Assembly (NCBI RefSeq): GCF_027594865.1
Contig: NZ_CP089391.1
Location: 7,036,501 to 7,100,500 of the forward strand
Origin: Bradyrhizobium xenonodulans
GTDB taxonomy: Bacteria; Pseudomonadota; Alphaproteobacteria; Rhizobiales; Xanthobacteraceae
Direction: 5' to 3'
DNA length: 64,000 bases
The translations under genes and the position numbers were made by a program. Below are positions 12,986 to 52,191 of the stretch, piece after piece (within the stretch, counting starts at the first letter, position 1; every line of letters begins with the position of its first letter). The notes below the pieces were generated by a model that saw only the letters and a list, made by a program, of their open reading frames with translations, was not told the DNA's origin and did no database searches.

Positions 12986-12997
12986 AAGTTCTCTCCG

Positions 12998-24126: not shown

Positions 24127-24817
24127 TTAGATCCGCATCCACGGAGCGGTCCTGGGCGCTCGGAGTGCGATCCAATCAGGATCCGACCACGACCGCTCTA
24201 TTTCAAAGCTGAACAAAGGGATCAGATAGTCCCGTATGATGATCGTGACGTGAGCTTCGCTGGCCTCATCCTCGGTCAACTGCCCGGCCTCGTTGGCATT
24301 CGCATATTGAGCCGTGGTCTGGATCAAATGTTTCCTTCCGAAGCAAAACCTCACATCATCGAAAAGGAACAGAGCGCCAGGCCTCAACAGCCGTTACTGC
24401 TGCGATGGCAACTAACTGCCAGATCGACATAGATTGAATGGCTACGTCGAGATAGATGATGTCGACAATCTCTCGATGTCACGCCAACCTGATCAGGTTG
24501 AACAGGTATGTTCCTGACGGATTTCCCAGAAATGTGATGTTTCGATCGCCGATGCCGGCCGCGGCCAGGTCGGCCTGGCGTTGGGCGCAGACATGTTCGA
24601 AGTCCAAGCCTACATAGCGGATGTCGAACTCATCGATGGTCCTGAACCGCTCCTCCCTGAACGTCGGTCCTACGCCGATCTCCAGAAAGCTGCACCCAGG
24701 ATTCTGTCGAAGGATCTGGACCAGCCGAGCATGAACCGACTGCCTGTACGCCCGGTAGTCGCTGGGCAGAGGATGGCTACCGTCAAATAGGACGTCGTAA
24801 CGAGCACTATTCATCAA
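24127..24817 (-). pseudogene. Class I SAM-dependent methyltransferase, interrupted
   Basis: The start at 24817 is MMNSARYDVLFDGSHPLPSD, with a Rossmann motif GCSFLEIGVGPTFREERF and YVGLDFEH. An in-frame TGA at 24479-24481 follows NLIRLA; the same frame continues with HREIVDIIYLDVAIQS, the expected D-I-I-Y-L-D strand. The frame then shifts to RPGALFLFDDVRFCFGRKHL and runs to 24127. The combined length fits a Methyltransf_24-type enzyme of about 230 residues. It follows the Gfo/Idh-type gene on the same strand, so it was probably the last gene of the radical-SAM operon. Confidence 0.75.
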
Positions 24818-24977
24818 TTGTCTCGCAATTGGTCAGAACATACATCTGGCATGCCGTACGCTGGGCCAAGTGCCTCCCCTTCCCGGTCACGAGCAACGAT
24901 GGCCAATGTCGGACCGTTTCCAGGCGAACACTGCAAGCCCAGAATGCCAAAGTGCGTTGAAGTCGAAGCAACGCCAT

Positions 24978-26384
24978 TCATGCCTGTACTTTACTGACTG
25001 CGCGTAATGGGGCCGCTTGATCTCTGTTCGCTCCATCCGTCGTGACCGCCGCCAAGTAGTGAGCAAAGAGCGATATCGGCCGGGTGTGCGACTCAAGGGA
25101 ACTCTTGCCGCTCCGCCCTGCCAACCAGTCGTCAAACAGCCTTTTGCGACCTGTGCGAAGGTCGGCGTTTCGGACAAGCGTGTCCCGCGCGGGATAAAGC
25201 CGTTCGCGTAAGGCTGCGCCGCCGAGGAAACCGGCATTCCGCCAAAGCGTGATGTGCGCCTCCCTTCTCAGTTGCGGATGAGCTTCCGTGCTCAAATGTG
25301 CGCGCTTGAAGATCCTGGCCTCGATCGCTGCGAAGGGACCGATATTCAAGCGGATGGTCTCGGACCCGTACCGTCCGTTCTTGTCGTAAACATCGGCTGG
25401 CAGTTGCCGCCAATTGCGAAGCGACACGCTGGTCTGCAGAAGGTCGAGCCGAAACAGGCAGACGGTCTCACGGCTTCCGGCACGCCTTGCGGCTCCGGAC
25501 GAGACAATATCCGTCTCACCCCAGAACGGTGGCGCGGGAAACAGTCGAGCGACTGGCGCGTCGCCGAGAAGCCTGCTCACCGGATCCGGGCCAATCTGCC
25601 CGACCTGGTCGGCGGCGGTCGCCCGATGGACATCCAACTCGACCGTCAGCCTCCCGAAGTGGTCCTCATTGTGAGCCAGAAGACCGGCGAGAATGTCAAT
25701 GTAGTGATAACCGGAATGACAAAGCATTCCGTAGCCGTAGCGGTAAGGATGGTCCTCCCGGGAGAGGATCTCCTCCTCCGTATTCCACACTCCCGCGTGA
25801 TGTTCGATACCAATATAGGTGACCGGCGTGCCAAGGTTTCGGGAGGCGCGGCGCGCATAGCGTCCAATCAATTCGTACACTGCGTTGTAGCGGCGCGGCG
25901 TCATGACCACGCAACGGCCGCCAGTCCGAACGCAGATCTCCTTGAGCTCGGCTAACGCACCGACCAGCCGGTCCGCGGCAGGGCGTCCATCCGCCCCCAT
26001 GGGAAGAACGATGGGCTTGTCGACCAGGCAATCAAGTCCAAGTCTAAGCGCCGCGCGCAGGTAGCCCAAATGAGCCTTGGGTTCGGTCGAGACGATCACT
26101 TTCGCGCCTGGACGTGCCAGAGCCGTCAGGACGTCCTCCCCATGGCCGGAATACCAGATCGCCCGTCGCCGGAGATCGGGTACCCATGAGACGCTCGCCG
26201 GCCTGCAGGTGCGGGGCCGGAAAAAGGCATCCACATCGCCTCGCACGCTGTCGAGCTCGACGACATGGAAGGCCGATGCTCGGCCGCTGGAGACGGCATC
26301 CTCGATCAGAGGAATATATTTCGCCCGGGCATAAGCACCGAGACCGACGAGAATGATATCTCCCCGCATGCGCCTTCTGATCAC
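24978..26384 (-). CDS. Gfo/Idh/MocA-like NAD(P)-binding protein
   Basis: 468 residues, longer than the usual 330-400. The Rossmann start is IILVGLGAYARAKYIPLIE (residues about 10-28). KVIVSTEPKAHLGYLRAALR and LDCLVDKPIVLP supply the family's E/D-K-P motif. EHHAGVWNTEEEILSRED and LCHSGYHYIDILAG (S-G-x-H-x-x-D) fit the catalytic-domain pattern. The last roughly 120 residues have no recognised domain. It lies 145 bp downstream of a radical SAM gene on the same strand and upstream of a broken methyltransferase. The start is ambiguous: M6 at 26369 has AGAAGG three bases upstream. Predicted to oxidise or reduce a sugar-, amino-acid- or imine-type substrate. Confidence 0.72.
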   Translation of the reverse strand: MIRRRMRGDIILVGLGAYARAKYIPLIEDAVSSGRASAFHVVELDSVRGDVDAFFRPRTCRPASVSWVPDLRRRAIWYSGHGEDVLTALARPGAKVIVSTEPKAHLGYLRAALRLGLDCLVDKPIVLPMGADGRPAADRLVGALAELKEICVRTGGRCVVMTPRRYNAVYELIGRYARRASRNLGTPVTYIGIEHHAGVWNTEEEILSREDHPYRYGYGMLCHSGYHYIDILAGLLAHNEDHFGRLTVELDVHRATAADQVGQIGPDPVSRLLGDAPVARLFPAPPFWGETDIVSSGAARRAGSRETVCLFRLDLLQTSVSLRNWRQLPADVYDKNGRYGSETIRLNIGPFAAIEARIFKRAHLSTEAHPQLRREAHITLWRNAGFLGGAALRERLYPARDTLVRNADLRTGRKRLFDDWLAGRSGKSSLESHTRPISLFAHYLAAVTTDGANRDQAAPLRAVSKVQA

Positions 26385-26529
26385 TCTCTCACTTTTGCCT
26401 CATCAGCACTTCGGACTTGATGAGGGCAGACACTGGGCCGGTCCGACGGACGCTGACAAGGTGGGATACTGCCTTCCTCGCGCACCGAGTACCGCCGATA
26501 TGGAGGCTTTTCGTTCATCGATCGCTTGG

Positions 26530-27558
26530 TCATGCGCAGGCGAGCGCACGGTTCTCGACATTCTTCAAGAGGGCGAGCTGACTCGGGCATTGGCCGCAGC
26601 CGCTGTTCGCCCGAAATTTCTCCAAAGCCGGCGAGCTACGCCAAACCTTCTCCAGGTCGAACTCCGGCGATCGGATATTGCCGAGGAGGAACTCGCGGCT
26701 ATCGGGATCACCGACGACGAAGGAACAGGGATACAAATCGCCGTTTGCAGAGAGGTAGACCGCGGTGGCACCACAGTCGCATTCGGTATATCTGACGTTT
26801 GGCCGTGGCTGCGACGTATCGATGAAAATCGGCGGCGGCAGTTCGAGGCGTGCTGAGCTGGGCTCTGCAGCAATCCCCATCAGGGCTTCCTGCAGCTCTC
26901 GAATTTCGTCAGCCGAGCCCAAGAGCGCATCCTCATTGCCGAGGGCAACGCCCGAGGCGAACATCGGCTTGACCCTGAAGGAGTAGACGCCGATTGACGA
27001 CAGGAGCCGGTAGGCGTCGAGCGCCTCACCGATGTTGTGCCGGTTGGCAGTCATCCTGGCCTGCACCAAGGCCCCGCAATTGGCCGCCTCAGCCATCTGC
27101 CGGAGCGCAGAATCGTAAACACCCGCTTTGCCCCGGAAGCGGTCCACCGTGTTTCGCTTCGCGCCGTCAAAGCTGAACTGGAACGTCAGGTTCTCGCGAT
27201 CGTCAAAGAACGAGGCGACGTCATAAATTGGCACCTGTCCGAGCCCCCCTGTGTTCAGTTGCACGTGAAGGCCTCGCTTGTTCGCATGGGCCATCACGGC
27301 TGCCGTGCGCGGAAACACGCGCTTGAGAAGCGGCTCGCCACCCGTCAAAGAGACTTTTCTCAGCGAATATTTGTCGACGAGAAGGTCGACGAACTCCGTC
27401 ATCTCCTCGATAGATAGTTGTGATGGCTCCAAAAGCTGCTTGTATTGATCCCGATACTCTTCAGGAACATAGCAATGCTCGCAATGAAGATTGCAGTAGA
27501 AAGATACGCAAATTCTCGTATGGTTGAAGACAATGGGCAGCGGATGGTCGCTTGGCAT
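26530..27558 (-). CDS. Radical SAM/SPASM domain protein
   Basis: 342 residues. The [4Fe-4S]-SAM motif is C22-NLH-C26-EH-C29, followed by SLTGGEPLLKRVF (GGE motif) and LTFQFSFDGAKRNTVDRFRG. The C-terminal SPASM region has cysteines at about 260, 262, 278, 321 and 324 (CDCGATAVYL, LYPCSF, SGCGQCPSQ), enough for an auxiliary cluster. It has a strong AGGAGG ribosome site, and upstream lie a -24/-12 promoter and a NifA-type site. Such enzymes modify peptides or small molecules. No obvious precursor peptide gene was seen next to it, and its operon partners are a Gfo/Idh-type protein and a (broken) methyltransferase, which fits small-molecule biosynthesis. Confidence 0.88.
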   Translation of the reverse strand: MPSDHPLPIVFNHTRICVSFYCNLHCEHCYVPEEYRDQYKQLLEPSQLSIEEMTEFVDLLVDKYSLRKVSLTGGEPLLKRVFPRTAAVMAHANKRGLHVQLNTGGLGQVPIYDVASFFDDRENLTFQFSFDGAKRNTVDRFRGKAGVYDSALRQMAEAANCGALVQARMTANRHNIGEALDAYRLLSSIGVYSFRVKPMFASGVALGNEDALLGSADEIRELQEALMGIAAEPSSARLELPPPIFIDTSQPRPNVRYTECDCGATAVYLSANGDLYPCSFVVGDPDSREFLLGNIRSPEFDLEKVWRSSPALEKFRANSGCGQCPSQLALLKNVENRALACA

Positions 27559-27591
27559 GGCATCCTCCTAGCTCTCTCCCAGAAAGGTTGC

Positions 27592-27607
27592 AGCAGGATT
27601 TATGCCA
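27592..27607 (-). promoter_or_regulatory. Sigma54 -24/-12 promoter of the radical SAM operon
   Basis: On the minus strand TGGCATAAATCCTGC, GG and GC ten bases apart. The predicted transcript start near 27581 lies about 23 nt before the radical SAM ATG, which has AGGAGG. Two mismatches to TGGCAC-N5-TTGC. Confidence 0.65.
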
Positions 27608-27688
27608 GTGCGACGCGCCGAATCTCCGACGACTTTGAGGGGGCAATGTCGCGCTCCAAACAGCTTGGCGGATTCTAGACATCAGGTC

Positions 27689-30899: not shown

Positions 30900-31439
30900 T
30901 CATGGTTCTATAAGCCTTTGGAGAACCAGAATGTCGTAGTTTGCCCCGTTACCGGGAAACGCTCCGGGTAGACATCCCGCGACCGAGAGTCCACATTTGC
31001 GTTCTGCAAAAGAAATTACGTTCGGGATATCTGCAAATATCATTCCTAAGATGCAGTGTAGATTGGCCGTACTTGCTCGGCTTAGAACAGCGTGCGCAAG
31101 AGCGGATCCAACTCCTTTACGACGAAACGCCCCTTGAACATAGAGCGACATCTCCGCTGTCTGCCTCAACCCTTCATTGTCATGGTGCCTAGTGAGTGCG
31201 GTCCATCCAATCACGCTGCCATTGCTCAGACAGGAGTAGGCCACAAATGAGGGACGACGCGCAAATAAAAATTCATTCATTTCCGGGACGCTCCACGGGC
31301 GTCTTCCTTGCGTCGATTCTCTATTCCGACATGCGGCGTTATAGATGTCTGTTACTTCGGGTAGATCAGTTGTTTGCAACCGGCGCACTTCATACTGCAT
31401 ATCTGGCCTTTCAATCTTCTGTGGCATCGGATCAGGCAT
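30900..31439 (-). CDS. GNAT N-acetyltransferase, phosphinothricin-acetyltransferase-like
   Basis: 179 residues, or about 166 from the internal ATG at 31400 (MQYEVRRLQ). The start of the domain YEVRRLQTTDLPEVTDIYNAAC matches the PAT pattern (IR.A...D...I..IYN). The acetyl-CoA loop is AEMSLYVQGAFRRKGVGSAL (R-x-x-G-x-G). PAT-like enzymes acetylate amino groups of amino-acid analogues. It faces a second GNAT of the same type at 31958 on the opposite strand. Confidence 0.82.
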   Translation of the reverse strand: MPDPMPQKIERPDMQYEVRRLQTTDLPEVTDIYNAACRNRESTQGRRPWSVPEMNEFLFARRPSFVAYSCLSNGSVIGWTALTRHHDNEGLRQTAEMSLYVQGAFRRKGVGSALAHAVLSRASTANLHCILGMIFADIPNVISFAERKCGLSVAGCLPGAFPGNGANYDILVLQRLIEP

Positions 31440-31957: not shown

Positions 31958-32452
31958 ATGGTGATTCGACGCGCTAAATACCCAGATGCTGAAGACATCG
32001 CAAAAATCTACAATCAAGCGATGGCACCCGGCGTCTTTGCTATGAGTCGAGTGTCGCCCGAAACTCGCACCGAACGGCTGGATTGGCTTAGGGAGCATAA
32101 AGACCCCTACCCCGCTTTCGTTTATCAGCACGAGAGCGGGAAAGTGATCGCATGGTGTTCCCTGAATACACTTTCGATGCGTCCTGAGTATATGGAGCTC
32201 TCCGAAGTGTCGTTTTACGTTGATGAACAACACCAGAGAAGAGGCATCGGAAGGCTGATGCTTGCGCATTTGATTAACACGGCCAACACTTTTGGACTAC
32301 GTGCCCTGTTGGGCCGTACCCTTGAAAGAAATGTCGGAGCGACCAAGAATTTCCATTCGTTCGGGTTTGTACGTGTCGTGACGCTACGCGAACTTTCGCT
32401 CATTCGAGGTGAATGGCACAATGACGTATGGCTGTGGAAACAGTTGCGATGA
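31958..32452 (+). CDS. GNAT N-acetyltransferase, phosphinothricin-acetyltransferase-like
   Basis: 164 residues. MVIRRAKYPDAEDIAKIYNQ, then SRVSPETRTERLDWLREH (the S-x-E-x-R segment typical of PAT enzymes), acetyl-CoA loop VSFYVDEQHQRRGIGRLML, and LLGRTLERNVGATKNFHSFGF at the C-terminal end. Same family as the GNAT at 30900-31439, although the two proteins are only distantly similar. Likely N-acetylates an amino-acid-like metabolite, for self-protection or as a biosynthetic step. Confidence 0.85.
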   Translation: MVIRRAKYPDAEDIAKIYNQAMAPGVFAMSRVSPETRTERLDWLREHKDPYPAFVYQHESGKVIAWCSLNTLSMRPEYMELSEVSFYVDEQHQRRGIGRLMLAHLINTANTFGLRALLGRTLERNVGATKNFHSFGFVRVVTLRELSLIRGEWHNDVWLWKQLR

Positions 32453-33149: not shown

Positions 33150-33165
33150 TGTCTCGCTTCGGACA
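33150..33165 (+). promoter_or_regulatory. NifA-type upstream activator site for the ATP-grasp gene
   Basis: TGTCTCGCTTCGGACA is a perfect TGT-N10-ACA, 96 bp before the -24 element at 33261. Confidence 0.72.
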
Positions 33166-33260: not shown

Positions 33261-33276
33261 TGGCACGCGCGTTGCA
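33261..33276 (+). promoter_or_regulatory. Sigma54 -24/-12 promoter of the ATP-grasp gene
   Basis: TGGCACGCGCGTTGCA matches TGGCAC-N5-TTGCA at every fixed position. Predicted start of transcription near 33288, about 157 nt before the ATP-grasp ATG. Confidence 0.82.
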
Positions 33277-33319: not shown

Positions 33320-33445
33320 ATGGCTGACAACGGCTGTCGTGGTGCTGGCTTAAGTTACTTCGATAGTGGAGCTATCTTCGCGCTCTGGAACACAGATGAG
33401 GCTTCTCGATACTTGAGCTCGGAATTGGCCTCCAGGAGAATCTGA
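33320..33445 (+). CDS. Possible 41-codon leader ORF overlapping the ATP-grasp start
   Basis: Inside the predicted leader an ATG at 33320 opens MADNGCRGAGLSYFDSGAIF, then ALWNTDEASRYLSSELASRRI, with the stop codon TGATG overlapping the ATP-grasp ATG. This could be a translational-coupling leader. A precursor-peptide role is conceivable but unsupported, because the ligase looks GshB-like rather than like the peptide-modifying grasp ligases. Confidence 0.3.
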   Translation: MADNGCRGAGLSYFDSGAIFALWNTDEASRYLSSELASRRI

Positions 33446-34443
33446 TGAGATTGCTGATACTCACCAACACACTCGACTGTTTAGGCGAGAACGACGCGCC
33501 GATCAGTAACGCGTTTCGCCGGCTGGGTTGCGAAGTCGTTTTCGGAGAATTGAATTCTATTTCGGCGGACGATTATCGCTTTTCCACAAGAGGAGCCTTG
33601 GTGCCTCAAAATGCCGAGCCATATCATCCCGGCGCCTCGGCAGAAGGAAAACGAAATGCCTATTTTCTCGACGAATGCCAATTGGTCTGGGTCATGAACC
33701 ATCCTCAAGATCGTGTATCCCTTGACATTTGGCAGATGCTTTGGTTGGCCTCTCAGCACACCTCCTTCGTTAACAGCGTCGAAGGCTTGATGTTTCTTAC
33801 TCCAAAACATGCATTGGGGTACGTCGTGCCCAAGGCAAACAGAGCTCTATCATATATATCGAACGATTTTTCGTTGCTATGGGATCGTTACCAACGAACT
33901 TCAGATCAATGGTGGGTGGCCAAACCGCCAAATTCCACTTGCGGGCAAAACGTCTTTCTACTGACCCCAAAAGGACCAAATGTCCGAGCAATCCTGCAAT
34001 GCCTTACCGGAAATACGGCTGCGCACAAAGACAGCTACGGCGAACTAGGCGGCTTCAAAGCTGACTATACCGTTCTTCAGGAGTATATTCCGGAAGTGGT
34101 CCGCGGCGAGAAGCGTGTCCTCGTCGCTTGCGGAGAGGCGGTTGCTTGGCACGGTCGGCTCGGGCATCCAGACGATCACAGGTCCAACATCGTGCTTGGA
34201 GGAAAACCCGTTCCGGCGGACCTGCATCAAGACGAGATTGGACTGGCCGAGTCGATCGGTCGAAAGCTGATGGCACATGGAATCAACTTCGCGGGGATAG
34301 ACATGGCCTATCCTTATATTATCGAAATAAACCTTGTAAATCCGGGAGGGCTGTACGACTTGCAGCTTGCTTCTGGAGTAGACCGTTCGGACAAAGTTGC
34401 TGAGCTAATCATCGCTCACTTCACGAAGGATTCGTCTTCATGA
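33445..34443 (+). CDS. ATP-grasp carboxylate-amine ligase, glutathione-synthetase (GshB)-like
   Basis: 332 residues. The N-terminal substrate domain begins MRLLILTNTLDCLGENDAPI. The ATP-grasp part shows WWVAKPPNSTCGQNVFLLTP, DYTVLQEYIPEVVRGEKRVL, and the GshB-type block RSNIVLGGKPVPADL, then INFAGIDMAYPYIIEINLVN with the metal-binding E-I-N. Members join a carboxylate to an amine using ATP through an acyl phosphate. It is driven by a perfect -24/-12 promoter with a NifA-type site and is bracketed by inverted remnants of one IS3 element. The absence of a gamma-glutamylcysteine ligase nearby argues against glutathione synthesis. Confidence 0.85.
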   Translation: MRLLILTNTLDCLGENDAPISNAFRRLGCEVVFGELNSISADDYRFSTRGALVPQNAEPYHPGASAEGKRNAYFLDECQLVWVMNHPQDRVSLDIWQMLWLASQHTSFVNSVEGLMFLTPKHALGYVVPKANRALSYISNDFSLLWDRYQRTSDQWWVAKPPNSTCGQNVFLLTPKGPNVRAILQCLTGNTAAHKDSYGELGGFKADYTVLQEYIPEVVRGEKRVLVACGEAVAWHGRLGHPDDHRSNIVLGGKPVPADLHQDEIGLAESIGRKLMAHGINFAGIDMAYPYIIEINLVNPGGLYDLQLASGVDRSDKVAELIIAHFTKDSSS

Positions 34444-35189: not shown

Positions 35190-36491
35190 TCAACAGTTGT
35201 TGCTTCGTACTCCAGTCAATGTTTCGATCAATGATTTCTCGAATATTTCCAGGCCTTGATTTAACGTCTCCAGGTCGATCGTGAGCGCGGGGAAAAACTT
35301 CACGACTTGATCGTCGGGCCCGCATCGTTCGACAATCAATCCCCGCTCAAATGCCCTTCTTGCAGTTGCTGCTGCGAGTTCGGTCTTTCGGCAATCGAAC
35401 CCCACTGCCATACCACGGCCTCGTACGGAAAAACCGTTTCCGTGCTCGGACGCAATGGCCTCAAGTCGGTCTAGCAATAGCGCTCCCATGCGGCGAACCT
35501 CCTCCGAGAAACTTGGGCAGCGCCAGTATGCATTTATGGCGGCGGTTGCAGACACTAGTGCGAGGTTGTTCCCCCGAAACGTGCCGGTGTGTTCTCCTGG
35601 TTCCCATACGTCCAGTTCCTCTCTGATCAACAACATTGATAACGGTAGACCGTACCCGCTTAGCGACTTCGACAGCACGATGACATCAGGCGACAACGCC
35701 GCAAACTCGAAGCTGAAGAATTCTCCTGTGCGTCCAGAACCCATTTGAATGTCGTCGACTATGAAGACGGCGCCTACATCCTTTGCTATCGCCTGGATCG
35801 ACTGCAACCACTCCTTGCTCGCTACATTGATACCACCTTCGCCCTGCACTGTTTCGACCAAAATAGCCGCCGGAGCGTCGATTCCACTGCCGCCGTCCAT
35901 CAACAACTTTCGTACGTACTCAGCCGTATCGACGCCTGGGCCCAAATAACCGTCGTAAGGCATGAAAGTTGTGCCAGACAGTGAAACTCCGCTGACTTTT
36001 CGATAAAAGCGGTTGCCTGTTGCGGCTATCGCTCCCAAGCTCAAGCCATGATACCCTCGAGTAAACGAGATGATATTTTGACGCCCTGTGACTTTCCGCG
36101 CGAGCTTTAAAGCTCCCTCAATTGCATTAGCCCCCGTTGGCCCCGTGAACTGGTAACGATACCGCATCCCCCGGCTCTCGAGTACGAAAGAATTGAAAGT
36201 CTCCATAAATTCGATTTTAGCAGGAGTTGCCATGTCAAGCCCATGAATCATGGCATCTGACGACAGATACTCGGTAACAGCAACTTTGATAGCGTGATTG
36301 TTGTGGCCGTAATTGAGCGCACCAGCACCGGAGAAGAAGTCAACCATCTGTCGACCATTCTCGGTCAACATGATGGAGCCGCGCGCACGACTGAAAACAG
36401 CAGGAAACGAACGTGAGTACGATCGGACCTTGGATTCGAGTTCTTCAACAGCGTGCAACTTACGTGCTTCGATACCAATCGCCTCGCCCAT
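35190..36491 (-). CDS. Class III aminotransferase, EctB-like diaminobutyrate-2-oxoglutarate transaminase
   Basis: 433 residues. Motifs: FSGAGALNYGHNN near 53-65, FTGPTGANAIEGALKLAR near 115-132, TRGYHGLSLGA, VETVQGEGGIN, VDDIQMGSGRTGEFF near 245-259, and the PLP site LSKSLSGYGLPLSMLLIR with lysine 275, followed by EPGEHTGTFRGNN. This combination is specific to the EctB/diaminobutyrate transaminase branch. Strong AGGAGG ribosome site. It would make 2,4-diaminobutyrate from aspartate semialdehyde and an amino donor. No ectC was seen, so ectoine synthesis in this window is unlikely and diaminobutyrate may feed another product. Confidence 0.87.
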   Translation of the reverse strand: MGEAIGIEARKLHAVEELESKVRSYSRSFPAVFSRARGSIMLTENGRQMVDFFSGAGALNYGHNNHAIKVAVTEYLSSDAMIHGLDMATPAKIEFMETFNSFVLESRGMRYRYQFTGPTGANAIEGALKLARKVTGRQNIISFTRGYHGLSLGAIAATGNRFYRKVSGVSLSGTTFMPYDGYLGPGVDTAEYVRKLLMDGGSGIDAPAAILVETVQGEGGINVASKEWLQSIQAIAKDVGAVFIVDDIQMGSGRTGEFFSFEFAALSPDVIVLSKSLSGYGLPLSMLLIREELDVWEPGEHTGTFRGNNLALVSATAAINAYWRCPSFSEEVRRMGALLLDRLEAIASEHGNGFSVRGRGMAVGFDCRKTELAAATARRAFERGLIVERCGPDDQVVKFFPALTIDLETLNQGLEIFEKSLIETLTGVRSNNC

Positions 36492-39068: not shown

Positions 39069-40724
39069 ATGATAATGCGCCCAGCAAAAATGAATACAGA
39101 CTCGAAGGAGCGTGCCGCAAGTGCATTGCGTAAAGTCGAGGCGCTGGAAGCCGCTTATAAGACCATCACCATCGGTCAGTTGGTTTCAATGCGGGCAAAG
39201 ACGCACGGATCGACCATAGCAATCGATGTCTTCGAGCGCGGTGAACGCGCGACGTATATGGAGATGGACCGATCATCTAACAAATATGCGAATGCGTTGC
39301 GTGCACTCGGCGTTCGCAAAGGGGATCGCATCGGTGTGATGCTTCCCAATCGCATCGAGTATCCGATCCTGTGGTTCGCGATCGCGAAGCTTGGTGCAGT
39401 CATGGTTCCGATCAACATGCGGTACACGCGAAGGGAGATTGAGTATGTTCTCAGCGATACACAGGCCAGGTTCGCCGTTGTGGACCAAGGGGTATGGTCA
39501 GTGTTCTCGTCTATGGAGCCTTGGCCCCAAAACCTTGCCAAGGAAAGGGTAGTTCTCGCGGGACAGCCTTCCTGCAGGATATCCAATACTATCGCTGGAT
39601 TACTCGAGGGCACCGACGACTCGTTGGTCGAGGAGGATGTCGGCCCTGACGATTTGTTGAACATTCAATATACGTCCGGGACAACCGGTTTTCCCAAAGG
39701 ATGCATGTTGACCCATGACTACTGGGGCGTGTTTTCGTATCAAGGGATGTGCTGGGACGACGGGCCGTACCAAAGATATCTGTCTGCGCAGCCATTCTTC
39801 TATGTCGATCCGCCGGTGCATCTTCTGAGATCGTATCGACAGGGCGGCACGCTCTACCTAGCTCCTCAACTTAGCGCGACACGCTTCTTTTGTTGGGTCA
39901 AGCAGCATCGCATAGAGTGGTGTCAGATTCCCGAGTTGATAGCGCGCGAGGCGGAGGCCGCCAACGAAGACGGGGCGACCTGCTTGAAGCAAATCCTGAA
40001 TTGGGGCTGGAGCCCTGATACAGTGCGCCAATTCCGGAAACGATTTCGAGTGCGGACCGAGGAAGCGTACGGGATGACGGAGATCGGTTTCGCCACACGA
40101 ATGACTAACCAGCTTGACGAGTTGGCATGTTCAGGTTCGGTGGGGATACGCGCGCCATTTCGGTCGCTGCGGCTAATGAACGAGGATGGCAACTCCACTC
40201 GAATCGGCGAAGTCGGTGAACTGTGGGTAACCGGGCGCGGGATCCTCAAGGGCTATTGGAATGCCCCGGAAGCAAATGCCGCTTCGTTTGAAGGCGAATG
40301 GTTTAAGACTGGTGATCTGATGCGTCGCGATGAGCTTGGGTGTTATTGGCTCGTGGGGCGCACGAAGGACATGATCCGCCGCTCAAGTGAGAACATCGCT
40401 GCAAGAGAGGTCGAGGCGGTCATTCGCGAAATTCCCGAGATCGCGGACGTGGCCGCCGTGCCGGTTCGCGATTCGAAGCGAGGAGAGGAAGTCAAGATTT
40501 TCGTCGAACTGAGAGGAGACGTCGCGTCAGAGAGTCTAACCATAGAGCGCATTATCGATCATGCGCGCGCGCACCTTGCGGCGTTTAAGGTGCCTCGGTA
40601 CATTGCCTTTACGCAGACGCTTCCTAGAGCCATCTCCAGCAATAAAGTGCTCAAACGTGAACTGATGGCCGCCGGTGATCCACTTTCTGGGGCTTATGAC
40701 ACCAAAGAGAAGCGCTGGTTGTGA
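39069..40724 (+). CDS. AMP-dependent acyl-CoA synthetase/ligase (CaiC-like)
   Basis: 551 residues from the ATG at 39069, preceded by CGAGG at suitable spacing; the frame opens further upstream at 38997. Core motifs of the ANL superfamily: YTSGTTGFPKGCMLTHDYWG (P-loop), EAYGMTEIGFATRM, WFKTGDLMRRDELGCYWLVGR, and the hinge KDMIRRSSENIAAREVEAVI. A catalytic lysine lies near the C-terminus in SSNKVLKREL. The organisation resembles CaiC-type ligases acting on small or betaine-like carboxylates. It may activate the acyl substrate for the neighbouring AONS-like protein or for the GNATs; the substrate is unknown. Confidence 0.88.
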   Translation: MIMRPAKMNTDSKERAASALRKVEALEAAYKTITIGQLVSMRAKTHGSTIAIDVFERGERATYMEMDRSSNKYANALRALGVRKGDRIGVMLPNRIEYPILWFAIAKLGAVMVPINMRYTRREIEYVLSDTQARFAVVDQGVWSVFSSMEPWPQNLAKERVVLAGQPSCRISNTIAGLLEGTDDSLVEEDVGPDDLLNIQYTSGTTGFPKGCMLTHDYWGVFSYQGMCWDDGPYQRYLSAQPFFYVDPPVHLLRSYRQGGTLYLAPQLSATRFFCWVKQHRIEWCQIPELIAREAEAANEDGATCLKQILNWGWSPDTVRQFRKRFRVRTEEAYGMTEIGFATRMTNQLDELACSGSVGIRAPFRSLRLMNEDGNSTRIGEVGELWVTGRGILKGYWNAPEANAASFEGEWFKTGDLMRRDELGCYWLVGRTKDMIRRSSENIAAREVEAVIREIPEIADVAAVPVRDSKRGEEVKIFVELRGDVASESLTIERIIDHARAHLAAFKVPRYIAFTQTLPRAISSNKVLKRELMAAGDPLSGAYDTKEKRWL

Positions 40725-42214: not shown

Positions 42215-43000
42215 TTATCGAACCAAGTGCAAGCCGGCGTCCATGCGTACACACTCACCAGTCATATGGCTCGAAGCGGAACTCGCCAAAAAATGGACGA
42301 GGTGCGCGATGTCCATGGCACTAGAGACGATCTTCAGCGCGGCCTTCTCAGTTATCGCATCTCGGACTTCCTTGGCCCGCGCTTCGCCACATCCCTTGGC
42401 ATACCAAGACGTGTCAATATAGCCTGGACAAACTGTGTTGACGCGGATAGCGGGCGCGAGGGCTTTGGCCAGCGACAAGGTCATGACGTTCAGCGCACCC
42501 TTGCTCGCGACATACGCTAACGACGACCCATCGCCGTTTATTCCTGCGACTGAGGAGATGTTGACCACCGCGGCTGTAACGCCGCAGGCTTGGACGTTGG
42601 CTTCCAACAACGATCGTGCCGCACGAATCATTTGATATGGCCCGATGGTGTTTACCGCGTAAATCTGCTGAAAGTCATCAGCCGATAATCCCTCCAGAGT
42701 ATGATGCGGCACGTGTTTGGTGATGCCGGCGTTATTGATAAGTACATCGAGCTTTCCCCAACTAGCCGCAGCGGCAACTATCCTGTTGCAATCCTGATCA
42801 CGCGACACGTCGCCCTGCACAACCAAGACCTCAGCGGCGCCAGCATTGCGGCACGCTTCGGCGGTCGCTTCGGCATCTTTTCGGTTACTGGAATAGTTGA
42901 TCACAAGGCGGGCACCGTCCGCGGCAAGTAGACGCGCACTTGCGGCCCCAAGTCCCGACGCCGAACCCGTCACAATCGCACACAAGTCATACTCTGCCAT
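42215..43000 (-). CDS. Short-chain dehydrogenase/reductase (3-oxoacyl-ACP reductase-like)
   Basis: 261 residues from the ATG at 43000, preceded by GAGGG. Classical SDR: cofactor loop VTGSASGLGAASARLL, LDVLINNAGITKH, catalytic serine in VNISSVAGINGDGSS, tyrosine/lysine in YVASKGALNVMTLSLAKAL, then VNTVCPGYIDTSW. LVINYSS after beta-2 suggests NADP preference, as in FabG-type enzymes. It lies alone on the minus strand between IS debris. It could reduce a beta-keto intermediate in the proposed pathway. Confidence 0.88.
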   Translation of the reverse strand: MAEYDLCAIVTGSASGLGAASARLLAADGARLVINYSSNRKDAEATAEACRNAGAAEVLVVQGDVSRDQDCNRIVAAAASWGKLDVLINNAGITKHVPHHTLEGLSADDFQQIYAVNTIGPYQMIRAARSLLEANVQACGVTAAVVNISSVAGINGDGSSLAYVASKGALNVMTLSLAKALAPAIRVNTVCPGYIDTSWYAKGCGEARAKEVRDAITEKAALKIVSSAMDIAHLVHFLASSASSHMTGECVRMDAGLHLVR

Positions 43001-43015
43001 CGTTGATGCCCTCAT

Positions 43016-44926: not shown

Positions 44927-45925
44927 ATGACTACACTTTACGAGAATGGCAGATTGCCCAGTACCCTATCTTCCCGGCTGACGCTCCCCCTGATCGCCGC
45001 GCCCATGGCCGATGTCTCGGGGGTGGACCTTGTGACTACCGTCTGCCGTTCGGGAATCATCGGCGCGTTTCCCACCACCAACGCCCGATCGGTTGAGGAG
45101 CTCGATCAATGGCTAGCCCGGATTGAACATGATCTCGCAAAGTTGGACCAGCCTGTCGCGCCGCACTGCCCAACACTCATGATCCGTCACCGACGGTTCA
45201 AGGATGATCTTGCCTGTATTGTACGTCACAGGGTGGAAATTGCCATCACCAGCGTGGGATCGCCGGCTGCTGCAGTCGATGCCTTGCACGAAATCGGCTG
45301 TCTCGTGCTCGCCGATATTGCCTCGCTGCACCATGCTGAGAAAGCCATCGAAGCCGGAGCGGACGGCTTGATTTTGCTGGCCGCCGGCGCGGGAGGCCAT
45401 ACCGGGTGGGCCAATCCGTTTGCGTTTGTTCGCTCAGTCCGCGCCATATTCGATGGTCCAATTGTACTTGCCGGCGGCATCACAGATGGCATTTCACTAG
45501 CGGCAGCGCAGATGCTTGGCTGCGATCTCGCTTGCATGGGTACTCGCTTCATCGCCACCAGGGAAAGCATGGCTAGCGCCACCTATCGGCAGATGTTGCT
45601 CGAAAGCACGCTTGATGACATCATCTTAACCAGCGCATTTTGGGGACTCAATGCGAACGTGCTGCGGAGTTCAATTGTCGCGGTAGGTCTCGATCCTTCA
45701 AAACTTGACGAGTCAGTGTCCGAAAGGCATGCAATGCAAAGATGTGGCAGTATCAGGTCTGGCGAAGGTCCGCCGCGTTGGGACAATATCTGGTGTGCTG
45801 GTCATTCAGTGTCGGGGGTGCGCTCAATCATGGGTGCTGCCGACCTCGTCAAGGAAATCGCAGGAGAGTACGAGGCGGCACTGGCGAACGCCGTTTGCAC
45901 GCGTATGTGGCCAGCACAACGCTAA
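44927..45925 (+). CDS. Nitronate monooxygenase-like FMN protein (2-nitropropane dioxygenase family)
   Basis: 332 residues, start supported by AAAGGAC eight bases upstream. TIM-barrel FMN enzyme pattern: LPLIAAPMADVSGVDLVTTV, GIIGAFPTTNARS, VLADIASLHHAEKAIEAGAD, LLAAGAGGHTGWANPFAFV (154-160 is GAGGHTG) and PIVLAGGITDGISLAAAQML, MGTRFIATRES. Family members oxidise nitronates, but many act as other flavin oxidoreductases or enoyl reductases (FabK-like). In this setting it could act on a nitro or nitronate intermediate; this is a guess. Confidence 0.85.
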   Translation: MTTLYENGRLPSTLSSRLTLPLIAAPMADVSGVDLVTTVCRSGIIGAFPTTNARSVEELDQWLARIEHDLAKLDQPVAPHCPTLMIRHRRFKDDLACIVRHRVEIAITSVGSPAAAVDALHEIGCLVLADIASLHHAEKAIEAGADGLILLAAGAGGHTGWANPFAFVRSVRAIFDGPIVLAGGITDGISLAAAQMLGCDLACMGTRFIATRESMASATYRQMLLESTLDDIILTSAFWGLNANVLRSSIVAVGLDPSKLDESVSERHAMQRCGSIRSGEGPPRWDNIWCAGHSVSGVRSIMGAADLVKEIAGEYEAALANAVCTRMWPAQR

Positions 45926-46662: not shown

Positions 46663-47715
46663 TCATCCTTCGGGCAAATCGTCCAACCAGCAGGCATTCT
46701 CGACGTACGGCCGGGAAAATATCTTTCCAATCTTTTCGGGAGCCTTATTTTGATGATATCGCATGTACACCCGGCCATCATCTCCCAGGTCCAGGATCTC
46801 GATTTTTCCTGTGCAATGCGACATAATGTATTTGAATGTTTTTTGGATACCGCTGAGACGTTGGTTGATGCTGCGCGTAATCTCTATTCCACGACGCAAT
46901 GCAACCTGAAAGTGTGACGCGCCCTTCACTGGCCTGCCCTGAAAAAGATAGTAAGGGCGCACTCCAATTTGGTGACATCTTGCGAATGTCGCCGCCAAGA
47001 TCTCGGGATCATCGTTGACTTTCGCAAGGAGCACGGACTGATTGAGGAACTGCACTTCCTGTGCACGCAAAGAACGAATTCTGCGTTCTGCGTCGACCGA
47101 GATCTCACCGATGTGATCGAAATGTGTGACGATTGTCGCTGTCTTGCCTGTTTGATGGATTCTTTGGAACAAAGACGAAAGAGCGGAATCCTCGAACCGC
47201 TTGGGCTCATAGGCAACCATTTTTGTGCCGAATCGAATGGAATCCAGATGTGCGATTGGCAGCAAGTGATCAACAATCTCATTGAGCTTGGCGGTGCTGA
47301 GCACGAACGGGTCCCCTCCCGATAGCAGCACGTTCGTCATCTCGGGATGCCGGCCGATATATTGCGCAACCTGAGCGAAATCAGGCGCAATTTCATCAGA
47401 GTCCTTACCGACCATGCGCTTGCGAAAGCAGTACCGGCAATATGAAGCGCAACGGTTCGTTACTAGCAACAACCCGGTCTGAGCGTACTTATGCTGGAGA
47501 CCAGGCACGACCGTGTTGGCGTGCTCCCCGCTCGTATCTAAGCTGCCGGGACTCTCGAACTCCTCAAGTGACGGCTCCACAACCCGTCTAAGCTGCTCGT
47601 AGTAACCACTTTTGGTAATTTGTTTGCTATAGAAACTTGTGACGTGATGACGCGTGATGTTGTTGGCCTGCAGCTCACCCTCGGTAACGGCGCGCGTCCC
47701 TTCGATAAATTTCAT
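46663..47715 (-). CDS. KamA-family radical SAM aminomutase
   Basis: 350 residues. HANTVVPGLQHKYAQTGLLL leads to the SAM-cluster motif C89-ASY-C93-RY-C96-FRKR, then NVLLSGGDPFVLSTAKLNEI, FLNQSVLLAKVNDDPEILA and PYYLFQGRPVKGASHFQV, the diagnostic KamA/EpmB pattern. The PLP lysine is probably in SHCTGKIEILDL, replacing the PGGGGK of lysine 2,3-aminomutase. The C-terminal cysteine cluster that binds zinc in clostridial enzymes is absent. Expected to move an alpha-amino group to the beta position of lysine or a related amino acid; the substrate is open. No EF-P or epmA gene lies nearby, so EpmB function is less likely. Confidence 0.87.
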   Translation of the reverse strand: MKFIEGTRAVTEGELQANNITRHHVTSFYSKQITKSGYYEQLRRVVEPSLEEFESPGSLDTSGEHANTVVPGLQHKYAQTGLLLVTNRCASYCRYCFRKRMVGKDSDEIAPDFAQVAQYIGRHPEMTNVLLSGGDPFVLSTAKLNEIVDHLLPIAHLDSIRFGTKMVAYEPKRFEDSALSSLFQRIHQTGKTATIVTHFDHIGEISVDAERRIRSLRAQEVQFLNQSVLLAKVNDDPEILAATFARCHQIGVRPYYLFQGRPVKGASHFQVALRRGIEITRSINQRLSGIQKTFKYIMSHCTGKIEILDLGDDGRVYMRYHQNKAPEKIGKIFSRPYVENACWLDDLPEG

Positions 47716-49218: not shown

Positions 49219-50118
49219 TCAGTTGTGGACTCTCAACGCGAGTTTCTGGCGCACCTCGTCTGCGCTCATTACCCGCACGCCCATCCTTACGAGAATTTCC
49301 ACAGCCCGCCGGACGAGCGCGGCGTTAGTCGCGAGCTGCCCGCGCGAGAGATAGAGATTGTCTTCTAGCCCTACCCGTACGTTTGCGCCGACCAACGGAG
49401 CCAACGCCGCATATGGAAGCTGCATCCGCCCGATCGAAAAGGCCGAGTAGATTGCTTGAGGCGGAATCCGGTGCACCAGCGTCATGAGCGTGGTCAGATC
49501 GTCAGGTGCGCCGTACCGAATTCCCATGCACAGCTGGATCAAGGCGGGATCCTCGATTACCCCCTCCTCGACTAAATCGCGCACTAGCACCAACTGACCG
49601 GTATCGAATACCTCGAGTTCCGGACGCACGCCTAGCTCCTTCACACGTGCGGCCATCACGCGTAGCGTCCCCGCGGTGTTGACCATGATGTATTGGCTGC
49701 GCGCGCCCCAATTCATCGTCCCGCAATCCAGAGTGCAGATTTCTGGACGCAACTCCTCTACATGCACCAGTCGCTCAAGCGCACCCGCCATATCCGTCCC
49801 CGCGGGGTTCGGCGGCAGAGGAGACTGCGGTTCACCTAGCACGAGGTCTCCGCCCATCCCGGCGGTCAGGTTAATCACCGGATTCACGTCCGACTTTCGA
49901 ATCCGCTGCACCACCGCCCTATATAGGGCCGGATCTCGGGCGCCGCGCCGGGTTTCAAGATCACGCACGTGAATGTGAACCACTGCCGCGCCTTCCCGTG
50001 CCGCTTCAATAGCCGAATCGGCGATCTGCTCCGGGGTCACCGGCACATGCGGGCTGTGCTCCACCGAACTTCCAGACCCTGTGACCGCACAGGTGATAAA
50101 CACCTCAGAAATCATCAT
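49219..50118 (-). CDS. Beta-keto acid cleavage enzyme (BKACE, DUF849; Kce-like)
   Basis: 299 residues from the ATG at 50118, which has AAGGAGA six bases upstream. MMISEVFITCAVTGSGSSVE is the usual start. VVHIHVRDLETR supplies the zinc-binding H-x-H, followed by NPVINLTAGMGGD, ICTLDCGTMNWG, PELEVFDTGQL and NVRVGLEDNLYLSRGQLATN (E-D-N motif). The founding member cleaves 3-keto-5-aminohexanoate with acetyl-CoA in lysine fermentation; others accept various beta-keto acids. A nearly perfect -24/-12 promoter lies upstream. A KamA-family aminomutase is 1.5 kb away, which makes an amino-keto-acid substrate attractive. Confidence 0.88.
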   Translation of the reverse strand: MMISEVFITCAVTGSGSSVEHSPHVPVTPEQIADSAIEAAREGAAVVHIHVRDLETRRGARDPALYRAVVQRIRKSDVNPVINLTAGMGGDLVLGEPQSPLPPNPAGTDMAGALERLVHVEELRPEICTLDCGTMNWGARSQYIMVNTAGTLRVMAARVKELGVRPELEVFDTGQLVLVRDLVEEGVIEDPALIQLCMGIRYGAPDDLTTLMTLVHRIPPQAIYSAFSIGRMQLPYAALAPLVGANVRVGLEDNLYLSRGQLATNAALVRRAVEILVRMGVRVMSADEVRQKLALRVHN

Positions 50119-50283
50119 GAACTTCTCCTTTGCCCAGCACCACACCAGACCGCACGAACAATCGCTCCGCCTTCTAATTCACCCTCTTCGCCTCCAGACA
50201 TAAGCAGCACGACATAAACAGAAACAGCCGCGGCTATCGATGGGCGCAACTGCAACCTAGTCGCGGCCGCATTCATCATTCAA

Positions 50284-50298
50284 GCAATCGACGTGCCG
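50284..50298 (-). promoter_or_regulatory. Sigma54 -24/-12 promoter of the BKACE gene
   Basis: On the minus strand CGGCACGTCGATTGCT: only the first T of TGGCAC-N5-TTGC differs, and GG to GC spacing is exactly ten. Predicted transcript start near 50272, about 150 nt before the ATG. Confidence 0.75.
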
Positions 50299-50552
50299 TT
50301 TACGGAATCCCTGCCCGGTTTGCCAATGAGAGAAACAGACGTTTAGCAAACAGCCTGGACGCGAAGCTTCGGCTCCGATCGGTGCGGCCAGCGACTGGCC
50401 TCGATACGAGAGCCTCTTCACCCCACCTTTGAGCTAGCCCGTCGCCGTATTCGCCCGCAGTGCAGCAGCATCTCCTCGCGCTCCGGTGCTACGCCAGATT
50501 CAATGTTGGACGCACGACTCGCTCGCCAGTTGGCGCGCCATCGCCACATCTT

Positions 50553-50568
50553 TGTCATCACGCATACA
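50553..50568 (+). promoter_or_regulatory. NifA-type upstream activator site 1 in the divergent region
   Basis: TGTCATCACGCATACA, perfect TGT-N10-ACA, 118 bp before the plus-strand -24 element at 50686 and about 255 bp from the minus-strand promoter at 50297. Confidence 0.7.
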
Positions 50569-50586
50569 AATGACTACTGATTCAAT

Positions 50587-50602
50587 TGTCCAGTTTCTGA
50601 CA
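50587..50602 (+). promoter_or_regulatory. NifA-type upstream activator site 2 in the divergent region
   Basis: TGTCCAGTTTCTGACA, a second perfect TGT-N10-ACA, 84 bp before the -24 element at 50686. Its centre lies 34 bp from that of site 1, about three helical turns. Confidence 0.7.
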
Positions 50603-50685
50603 CCGTACGATAATCGTCGAGCGAGGTCGCCCACTTCCGGCGCGCCAATGTTCGGGCTCAGACGCTTAGTGTGCGTAGATGCTGC

Positions 50686-50700
50686 TGGCACGTTCATTGC
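50686..50700 (+). promoter_or_regulatory. Sigma54 -24/-12 promoter of the CoA-ligase alpha-like gene
   Basis: TGGCACGTTCATTGC matches TGGCAC-N5-TTGC at every fixed base. Predicted transcript start near 50712, 25 nt before the GTG start, with GGAGAGGAG between. Confidence 0.85.
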
Positions 50701-50736
50701 CAATCAAATGCTATAACTGCCGGAGAGGAGCGCTGA

Positions 50737-52191
50737 GTGCATTCAGAAACGCAGCATTTGGATAACTTCAAAATGTCCGGCGGAAAACGGACTCTGAGAT
50801 CTCTCTTCGAACCGCAGGGAGTTGCCGTGATTGGTGCTTCGCCGAAGCCGAGCCTTGCCAAAAGCATCCTTAACAACGTTGTCTCCTTCGGATTCGACGG
50901 AAACATTGCTGCTGTGAACCCAAACTATACGAGCATTGATGACATCGATTGTTACAAGTCCATCGCAGACGTTCCGTTTCAGGTCGATCTGGCCGTGTTA
51001 TGCGTTCGAGCCGAGAAAGTTCTCTCTGTGTTAGAGGAATGCAAGCGAAAGTCGGTGGGAGCCGCGCAGATCATCTCTAGCGGTTTCGCGGAACTCGACT
51101 CGGAGGAGGGTCGCGCAAGGCAACAACAAGTTCAGCGCTGGGCCGAAGAGTCGTCCACAACAATTGTTATCGGGCCCAACACATACGGGGTCATTAATCT
51201 GCACCGGCCAATAGTTGCCGTTGGCGACAGCAAGATCGCCAAGGTAGTCGCGGGATGCGTTAGTGGCGTCTTTCAGAGCGGTCAGATGGTTACCATGATG
51301 CACCCGTTGATGAGCAGAGGCATTGGGATTAGCAAGATCGTGACGACTGGCAACGAAGTCAGCGCAACAACAGCCGAACTAATCAACTTCTTCGCTGACG
51401 ATCCCCAAACAGCTGTCATCGTCAGTTATTGCGAAGGCATTAACGATCCAGAATGCTTTGCCATTGCCTGTAAACGCGCGCGGAAACAAGGCAAGCCGAT
51501 TATCATGTTGCGCGTCGGGGCACATCCCGAGGTGCAAGAGGGCATCAGTCGACATACGGCGACACGAGGCGCGGACAGCTACAGACAAGACATCCGTTTC
51601 CTGGAAGATCTGGGTGTGATTGCCGTTCATTCAGTCGAGGACTTAATCGAAACCGTCGTAGCTTTCAACGCCTGTCCTAAACCGCAGGGCAATCGCATCG
51701 CTTTTGTAAGTTTTTCTGGGGGAATGGGCAATATAGTGGCCGATTCGATCCTATCGACGCCGGGGCTGAAGCTCGCTTCCTTTTCCCATCGGTTGCGCGA
51801 AGAGCTGGCGGACGTGCTTCCGAGATTCGCGAACGCCTTTAATCCCCTAGATCTGAGTGCTCAGAGCGCATTTGATGCCAAGATTCTGACGAGTTGCATA
51901 GAAGTACTCGGACAGAGCGATGAGTTTGACATCCTTCTCTGGGGCAAGGACTTGCCGATGAGCATCGAGGACAATTCCGCGGTTGGTCTCGCACTGAGGA
52001 AGCTAATGGCACAACATCCTAGAATCGTTGTCATTCCCATGTCGCAGATGAATGGAATCTGTCAAGGCGGGGAGATCGATGGAAGCCCGCCCATGTTCGC
52101 TGGCCGAGCCCTCTTGCAAGGCACTGCCGGCTCGATTCGAGCTTTAGGCAAAGTAATCGGGTGGCATGGGGCAAGTTCGATAACTGCGTAA
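50737..52191 (+). CDS. CoA-binding protein, ADP-forming acyl-CoA synthetase alpha-subunit type
   Basis: 484 residues from the GTG at 50737, supported by GGAGAGGAG; M13 is an alternative. The CoA-binding Rossmann part reads PQGVAVIGASPKPSLAKSIL and FDGNIAAVNPNY. The succinyl-CoA-ligase-like flavodoxin part is IGPNTYGVINL, VFQSGQMVTMMHPLMSRGIG and KIVTTGNEVSATTAELINFF. The phosphohistidine candidate lies in SRHTATRGADSYRQD near 270. The ATP-grasp beta domain of full acyl-CoA synthetases is absent and no beta-subunit gene adjoins, so it needs a partner or does something else with a CoA thioester. It is divergent from the BKACE gene and shares its regulatory region. Confidence 0.85.
   Translation: MHSETQHLDNFKMSGGKRTLRSLFEPQGVAVIGASPKPSLAKSILNNVVSFGFDGNIAAVNPNYTSIDDIDCYKSIADVPFQVDLAVLCVRAEKVLSVLEECKRKSVGAAQIISSGFAELDSEEGRARQQQVQRWAEESSTTIVIGPNTYGVINLHRPIVAVGDSKIAKVVAGCVSGVFQSGQMVTMMHPLMSRGIGISKIVTTGNEVSATTAELINFFADDPQTAVIVSYCEGINDPECFAIACKRARKQGKPIIMLRVGAHPEVQEGISRHTATRGADSYRQDIRFLEDLGVIAVHSVEDLIETVVAFNACPKPQGNRIAFVSFSGGMGNIVADSILSTPGLKLASFSHRLREELADVLPRFANAFNPLDLSAQSAFDAKILTSCIEVLGQSDEFDILLWGKDLPMSIEDNSAVGLALRKLMAQHPRIVVIPMSQMNGICQGGEIDGSPPMFAGRALLQGTAGSIRALGKVIGWHGASSITA

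Follow-up and report, generated by a model that had tools for sequence, protein, structure and literature searches.

The window analysed here is a 64-kb stretch of Bradyrhizobium xenonodulans DNA (positions 7036501-7100500 of a single 8.28 Mb contig), in which a dense set of metabolic genes occupies positions 24127-52191. As the original prediction had it, enzyme genes are crowded into this 28-kb span, 13 of them intact and one frameshifted. The span lies in the symbiosis region, between nodA, ~87 kb to the left, and nifH, the only match on the contig to the NifH profile along its whole length, ~160 kb to the right of the window. Twelve of the 13 intact enzymes were named by NCBIfam and Pfam scans, a Gfo/Idh-like protein being the exception. 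No nonribosomal peptide synthetase (NRPS) or polyketide synthase (PKS) domain was found among the 40 window open reading frames (ORFs) scanned with Pfam, as had also been claimed, and no tRNA genes were found in the window.

The genes that matter most for what follows begin with two GNATs and a ligase. The first GNAT (30900-31439, reverse strand) is ArsN1/PAT-like, under cut-off, with orthologues in L096 (81%) and in L067, L075, and L087 (55%; L and G numbers are our labels for loci and genomes); the second (31958-32452, forward strand; Pfam) has orthologues in L096 (80%), L056 (87%), and L067 and L075 (51-59%). A GshB-like ATP-grasp ligase follows (33445-34443, forward strand; PF02955, under the glutathione synthase cut-offs), then an EctB-type diaminobutyrate:2-oxoglutarate transaminase (35190-36491, reverse strand; TIGR02407, 591.8 bits against a cut-off of 552.2), an AONS-like protein of the PRK07505 subfamily (37028-38185, forward strand; over cut-off), and an AMP-dependent acyl-CoA ligase, here called ACS (38997-40724, forward strand; PF00501, PF13193). 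Further right are an SDR oxidoreductase (42215-43015, reverse strand; PF13561), an NMO/FabK-like FMN protein (44927-45925, forward strand; PF03060), a KamA-like radical SAM aminomutase (46663-47715, reverse strand; KamA-family NCBIfam models under cut-off), the beta-keto acid cleavage enzyme BKACE (49219-50145, reverse strand; PF05853), and the alpha part only of an NDP-forming acyl-CoA ligase (50737-52191, forward strand; PF13607 and PF13380, TIGR02717 under cut-off), which had no plasmid match at 1e-60.

The left end of the span carries a radical SAM/SPASM protein (26530-27558, reverse strand; PF04055, PF13186; no plasmid match at 1e-30) and the Gfo/Idh-like oxidoreductase (24978-26384, reverse strand). 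The latter itself matched no Pfam or NCBIfam model; its Bradyrhizobium relatives (73-91%) include some named predicted dehydrogenase, and PF01408 was found in only one, distant, among 43 listed relatives. Beside it, at 24130-24814 on the reverse strand, is the gene predicted to be a broken methyltransferase. The frameshift is real, as blastx aligned the gene in two frames to ORFs of L085, L082, and L105, making it a homologue of a 222-aa protein, but the methyltransferase label is not supported, since the intact homologue in L085 matched no Pfam family. Remnants of IS66 and IS3-like elements lie in the gaps at 28.1-29.6, 40.9-41.8, and 48.9-49.2 kb, and the gaps at ~34.4-35.2, 36.5-37.0, 38.2-39.0, and 45.9-46.7 kb gave matches to the window's own ORFs only. 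Outside the span, a CmcI-type methyltransferase (18512-19312, reverse strand; PF04989) is likely a further member of the cluster; a 76% relative stands upstream of BKACE-SDR-ACS-AONS in Bradyrhizobium sp. 62B, and a 69% relative adjoins AONS in L105.

We asked how these genes are distributed over 146 genomes of the genus, one per species, using single-protein thresholds of E 1e-60 for KamA, 1e-90 for AONS, 1e-150 for EctB, 1e-80 for BKACE, and 1e-200 for ACS; all statistics ignore kinship. KamA was found in 26 genomes, AONS in 33, EctB in 53, BKACE in 20, and ACS in 24. Full-length NodA, present in 85 of the 146 genomes (kept from 94 with any NodA match), accompanied KamA in 26/26 carriers, EctB in 53/53, BKACE in 20/20, ACS in 24/24, and AONS in 32/33. 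Within these 85 NodA-positive genomes, AONS (32) and BKACE (20) occurred together in 19 (Fisher p 1.3e-9), BKACE (20) and ACS (24) in 15, and AONS (32) and EctB (53) in 31. Draft contigs can conceal linkage between genes; in all 12 genomes with AONS and BKACE on one contig the two were 3-23 kb apart, in varying gene order. On five single-contig chromosomes they were 3-12 kb apart, with the nearest AONS 51-139 kb from NodA. KamA was more loosely linked, lying within 30 kb of BKACE in 4/7, of AONS in 3/6, and of EctB in 1/6 same-contig cases. These counts support the conclusion that, in symbiosis regions of other Bradyrhizobium, the core genes are found together and close to one another more than can be put down to their joint presence with NodA. 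Chance grouping of unrelated island genes was rejected for the AONS/BKACE/ACS/EctB core on the same co-occurrence and distance counts.

The neighbourhoods in relatives tell a similar story. The closest, in Bradyrhizobium sp. CSS354 (L096), packs both GNATs, GshB, AONS, ACS, BKACE, and the CoA ligase into 13 kb, with identities of 75-93%. L056 (G052) has BKACE-ACS-AONS-EctB-GshB and a GNAT, and L059/L060 (G117) has AONS-EctB-BKACE-ACS-SDR-NMO in ~21 kb. In the peanut-nodule strain sp. 62B, plasmid p1 (L180) has the CmcI methyltransferase and a TauD-type dioxygenase ahead of BKACE-SDR-ACS-AONS on one strand. In 8 of the 20 mapped BKACE places an SDR gene is found no farther than 6 kb away. The radical SAM/Gfo pair follows AONS-FabG-CoA-transferase in L105 and L103 (radical SAM protein 95% in L105; 66% of its length matched in L103), and the Gfo/Idh-like gene adjoins AONS in both and, as a partial gene, in L110. 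The CoA-ligase alpha gene appeared in few genomes (L096, L067, L087, and one G133 contig). G124 and G080, and likewise L119 and L152, have a compact operon that runs CoA-transferase III-EctB-enoyl-CoA hydratase-236-aa protein-(HemL-like PLP enzyme)-AONS-FabG-CoA-transferase III. For the tandem CoA-transferase the B. xenonodulans genome yielded no orthologue (best match 32%), and a search without a positive control found none for the conserved 236-aa neighbour, whose predicted structure has a mean pLDDT of 39.8. Because gene orders change and operons vary among relatives, we consider the window to carry one version of a cluster that belongs to a wider family. In L059 (8606-10849; G117) EctB and enoyl-CoA hydratase are fused in one 748-aa frame; they are separate neighbours in L074 and L094.

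Pairwise dN/dS values of 0.08-0.29 show purifying selection on the compared genes, with the exception of AONS and of the methyltransferase outside the span (0.16-0.36); one SDR pair yielded no value.

The prediction had also placed several genes under sigma54/NifA-type control. The consensus patterns that we used for the two regulators are general background knowledge. We searched for TGGCACGN4TTGCW, keeping GG and GC fixed and tolerating no more than 1 mismatch, and for a NifA-type upstream activator sequence (UAS), TGT-N9-11-ACA, at a distance of 60-220; the upstream site is printed as TGT-N10-AGA in the excerpted text of PMC3538637. Ahead of the ATP-grasp gene are a TGT-N10-ACA site (33150-33165, forward strand) and a sigma54 -24/-12 site with no mismatch (33261-33276, forward strand). 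BKACE is preceded by a sigma54 site with 1 mismatch (50283-50298, reverse strand), without a NifA-type site at the usual distance, and the CoA-ligase alpha gene by another with 1 mismatch (50686-50701, forward strand), upstream of which, between BKACE and the CoA ligase, are two NifA-type sites (50553 and 50587; 50553-50602, forward strand). The remaining genes of the span had no sigma54 site with at most 1 mismatch; a weak sigma54-like site with 3 mismatches (27592-27607, reverse strand) has two TGT-N10-ACA sequences upstream (27647 and 27689).

Across relatives we counted matches of >80% coverage that were at least 50% identical, taking each distinct 200-base upstream end once. A sigma54 site preceded BKACE in 16 of 20 distinct upstreams (from 22 rows, the binomial background being taken from the same loci), 7 of the 16 with a UAS, and the GshB-like ATP-grasp gene in 4/4, all with a UAS. 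For the CoA-ligase alpha gene it was found in 1/4 upstreams, with 2-mismatch sites and a UAS in L067 and L087. Sites were found before KamA in 2/20 upstreams, the outside methyltransferase in 2/3, CoA-transferase III in 7/36, the thioesterase in 3/6, a carnitine-dehydrogenase-like gene in 2/12, TauD in 1/6, MaoC in 1/8, and ACS in 1/23. Overall, such sites were ~5x as frequent in the cluster loci as in a Markov control. Conserved promoter sites support the claim of sigma54/NifA-type control for BKACE and GshB; before EctB, AONS, SDR, and NMO none were found, as described below. A lone condensation domain upstream of KamA had a sigma54 site in 3/3 cases: in L052 (7972), L053 (7951), and L095 (10685) this stand-alone NRPS domain, with a mismatch-free sigma54 site and a NifA-type site, comes before KamA and BKACE.

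Taken together, we read the span as a metabolic gene set of the symbiosis region, interrupted here by transposons, whose role in nodules is to make or remodel small molecules derived from amino acids, and we give this a probability of about 50%. The gene content, the linkage of the core, the purifying selection, and the promoter sites are observations; the enzyme activities, the direction and order of the steps, the action of NifA, and the product are inferred. EctB would convert aspartate semialdehyde to 2,4-diaminobutyrate (DABA), like its counterpart in pea nodules, the GshB-like ATP-grasp enzyme would join a carboxylate to an amine, and the GNATs would acetylate. ACS, BKACE, and SDR could handle the conversion of a beta-keto to a beta-hydroxy (carnitine-like) amino acid chain as a CoA ester, in either direction, and KamA may form a beta-amino acid. 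At the onset of nitrogen fixation, NifA and sigma54 would activate the ATP-grasp, BKACE, and CoA-ligase promoters. Synthesis is favored over catabolism, though not strongly, and a single pathway is plausible.

A number of observations weigh against this reading. None of the mapped relatives has all 13 genes. Elsewhere KamA neighbors GGT, 7TM, and ligase genes, or MaoC, thioesterase, and peptidase genes, and in 20 KamA stretches and five plasmid stretches the families present in at least 4 loci included no window enzyme except KamA and an ABC ATPase; KamA beside BKACE in G143, G076, and G133 was missed by this cut-off. The genome survey behind the ATP-grasp and CoA-ligase DNA matches scored the two top candidate regions per genome, and it found ATP-grasp matches in three genomes that had neither AONS nor BKACE at the thresholds used (G112, G047, and G141). 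NMO was positive in 124/146 genomes owing to a common paralogue (54-58%). The closer NMO clade (65-78%; its bound of at least 65% identity was chosen after the list had been seen, and a partial 71% match in G109 was excluded) comprises 15 other genomes, 16 with the window's own; three of them are NodA-negative, and in two the gene lies megabases from NodA.

It is possible to explain such a distribution by independent nodule modules (KamA; radical SAM/Gfo; BKACE-SDR-ACS-AONS; GNAT-GshB; EctB) gathered in one permissive region by horizontal transfer and transposons, with no common product. This would account for the recombination of KamA and of radical SAM/Gfo with other partners, for the 53 genomes with EctB, only 19 of which have BKACE and 31 AONS, and for the insertion sequence debris in the window. 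AONS, BKACE, ACS, SDR, and EctB nevertheless remain close despite many changes of order and strand, and we regard a mere patchwork as unlikely. The co-occurrence across Bradyrhizobium that the original prediction proposed to look for was thus largely found, for the AONS/BKACE/ACS/EctB core. Its idea of one pathway for the whole set is not borne out to the same degree: KamA and radical SAM/Gfo are separable modules, and the ATP-grasp and NMO genes also occur without the core.

Also unfavorable to a nodule biosynthetic set are the promoter negatives. At most 1 mismatch allowed, no sigma54 site was found before EctB (0/17), AONS (0/44), SDR (0/9), or NMO (0/7), and likewise none before the GNATs (0/5 and 0/2), the radical SAM protein (0/2), Gfo (0/3), FabG (0/19), or the 236-aa gene (0/19). 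In favor of the reading, EctB relatives in other genera can depend on NifA. In Mesorhizobium loti R7A the EctB relative msi260 gave 1339 units with and 5 without nifA2; a table in the excerpted report lists it with NifA promoters and the text without, its authors deemed direct NifA action unlikely, and msi260 mutants fixed nitrogen normally (PMC3538637). In a Paraburkholderia phymatum nifA mutant, as far as the excerpted account goes, ectB was down by log2 7.58, a GNAT two locus numbers on was also down, and there was less DABA (PMC8305402).

The AONS-like protein raises a further difficulty, as it has Glu (E228) in place of the PLP lysine. This lysine is kept in 91/100 aligned rows (82/89 distinct sequences), as well as in the best solved relative, and is absent in nine rows (7 distinct); Glu is also found in L096 and G052 and Asn in four further genomes. 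Open-frame relatives with Glu or Asn here come from seven genomes (the window, L096, L056, L131, L111, L077, and L089). The dN/dS of the window gene is 0.35-0.40 to its nearest relatives, L096 and L056, and 0.14-0.30 to others, which indicates weaker constraint. In this strain the protein is either decaying or in another role. Since the PLP lysine is lost, acyl-CoA condensation by this protein, which the original prediction had suggested, cannot be assumed.

The strongest competitor starts from BKACE, which is 62% identical to a BKACE that shares an Agrobacterium pAt operon with genes for carnitine 3-dehydrogenase and ABC uptake. Bacteroids might use the set to dismantle host compounds (carnitine-like beta-hydroxy-gamma-amino acids, homoserine/DABA, or other nonprotein amino acids) via CoA esters and BKACE cleavage. 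The one nonsymbiotic BKACE operon examined is catabolic, of this carnitine type, and 9/20 mapped Bradyrhizobium BKACE places have a carnitine-3-dehydrogenase-like gene no more than 6 kb away, two of them also an ABC gene; the catabolic operon and these two places count against synthesis. An ABC transporter stands between the ATP-grasp and ACS genes in Bradyrhizobium sp. 187. AONS relatives (~50%) in several Hyphomicrobiales (L132-L175) are in many cases near an uptake ABC system, GntR, a HemL-like PLP enzyme, a thiamine pyrophosphate enzyme, and FabG, a recurring set that looks like a catabolic system.

However, none of the window ORFs scanned within the span came out as a transporter, and the two ABC-adjoining BKACE copies (the second copy in L080, and L086; G034 and G108) are two of the four site-less places. 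A sigma54 site precedes 16 of the 18 others, as if the two kinds were separate. This suggests that two kinds of BKACE locus exist; the site-less L080 and L086 copies may be plain carnitine loci that neighbor a recruited paralogue. The ATP-grasp ligase and the two GNATs would also point to making rather than breaking, and Dat of Rhizobium leguminosarum runs toward DABA (PMC10228743, in excerpt). We hold a catabolic set to be rather unlikely.

The biosynthetic reading can be narrowed by looking at individual enzymes. The KamA-like protein aligns to C125/C129/C132 of 2a5h, so the radical SAM cysteine motif is present, and Arg261 occupies the position of Asp293 of lysine 2,3-aminomutase (LAM) in 25/25 aligned rows (23 distinct sequences). 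We take LAM Asp293 to bind the lysine side chain, and glutamate aminomutase has Lys at this position. Because Arg replaces Asp293, an acidic substrate appears more likely than lysine. Lysine fermentation (KamA with Kce) was rejected as a candidate, with no other gene of the pathway among the ORFs scanned and KamA lacking the lysine-binding Asp. Of the ATP-grasp ligase's relatives, the named ones with at least 60% identity come from Bradyrhizobium or Mesorhizobium, and five at 32-37% are on Streptomyces and Pantoea plasmids; both such plasmid loci examined have a second ATP-grasp gene, a PLP enzyme gene, and an MFS transporter gene as neighbors, an arrangement that resembles small-peptide pathways. 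One tentative version, to which we give less than even odds, is a nodule-specific, NifA-linked, rhizopine-like metabolite pathway without NRPS or PKS in this strain. Here DABA, a beta-amino acid, and a BKACE-made beta-keto/beta-hydroxy amino acid would be joined by the ATP-grasp ligase, with the PLP-lysine-less AONS relative in a new role.

Alternatively, EctB-derived DABA and KamA could feed beta-alanine for bacteroid CoA, with the CoA enzymes as consumers. DABA or homoserine relieves pantothenate auxotrophy of R. leguminosarum (PMC10228743, in excerpt), and panD is near EctB in Bradyrhizobium sp. 187 (~8 kb) and near KamA in Mesorhizobium AR10 (~3 kb). But no panD was seen among the window ORFs scanned, and the ATP-grasp ligase, GNATs, BKACE, and radical SAM/SPASM protein would be left unexplained, which makes CoA supply a very improbable purpose.

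Elsewhere in the window, the left edge (1317-5556) carries an aminotransferase and a MalK/TOBE-type ABC transporter. An aspartate aminotransferase gene adjoins a PEP-mutase-family gene at 11729-13870, with a LysR gene at 14232; the pair is also found beside a LysR gene on plasmid p_1 of M. loti 582 (L185), and M. loti R7A genes named aatA and pepM showed strong NifA2 dependence in nodules in the excerpted data of PMC3538637. At 57509-62290 are an M20 deacylase and parts of an Ehu-like (ectoine-type) ABC transporter, with EhuB and EhuD over their NCBIfam cut-offs.

Symbiosis islands hold many nodule-induced genes of unknown use. A partly NifA-controlled set with a conserved core turns a loose gene list into a testable pathway, including in the peanut symbiont sp. 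62B. It could reveal a metabolite exchanged among bacteroids, host, and free-living kin, one that NRPS/PKS-based cluster finders would overlook.

How the set compares with known systems bears on its novelty. In the open-access literature, the extent of our coverage (subscription papers fell outside it), no paper on the cluster as a unit was found. Its single genes are known (Dat, NifA-dependent ectB, and bll8232 KamA), and there is a published case of an EctB-type enzyme that forms DABA in nodules: Dat (C189) of R. leguminosarum UPM791, like the window's EctB an EctB-type enzyme of a symbiont, is strongly induced in pea nodules and forms DABA there. Dat differs in being linked to homoserine use and pantothenate, and the excerpted text mentions no BKACE/ACS/GshB/AONS cluster (PMC10228743). 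The P. phymatum ectB and GNAT genes and M. loti msi260 likewise offer EctB-type genes of a symbiotic plasmid or island with NifA-dependent nodule expression, but the excerpts report them singly and propose no cluster or product (PMC8305402, PMC3538637). KamA bll8232 and GGT bll8231 are among the differentially expressed genes of soybean nodules (PMC8632152, in excerpt).

An ordinary ectoine locus was rejected, since EctB stands alone. EctC (PF06339) had no match in the B. xenonodulans genome, and the control genomes gave none either; of the candidate EctA proteins, the GNAT at 30900 matches ArsN1/PAT models only, and the GNAT at 31958 was scanned against Pfam only. The Agrobacterium pAt carnitine operon combines BKACE with carnitine 3-dehydrogenase and an ABC transporter, whereas in the window span BKACE is present with neither of the others seen, and its sigma54 promoter sets the window apart from that catabolic operon.

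The accessoryA plasmid cluster of Sinorhizobium meliloti M270 (L006, 4817-14382) has KamA (82%) and EctB (59%) in common with the window. It differs in having an amino-acid-kinase-family gene, aspartate-semialdehyde dehydrogenase, and two L-amino-acid ligases around KamA, with no match to BKACE, ACS, or AONS in 25 kb. Its gene content resembles a pathway to dipeptides of DABA or of a beta-amino acid. EctB is also near KamA in L179, and the two are a few kilobases apart on several Rhizobium and Sinorhizobium plasmids.

The closest analogy in the way the system may work is with the rhizopine (mos) genes of Sinorhizobium meliloti, by which a small molecule is produced in nodules under NifA-type control. 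The window has no mos-type gene set, none of the mosABC-type families as generally known being matched by the 13 enzymes in Pfam, and its product would differ; what it shares with the rhizopine genes are NifA/sigma54-type promoters, at 33261 and 50686 on the forward strand, each with upstream sites.

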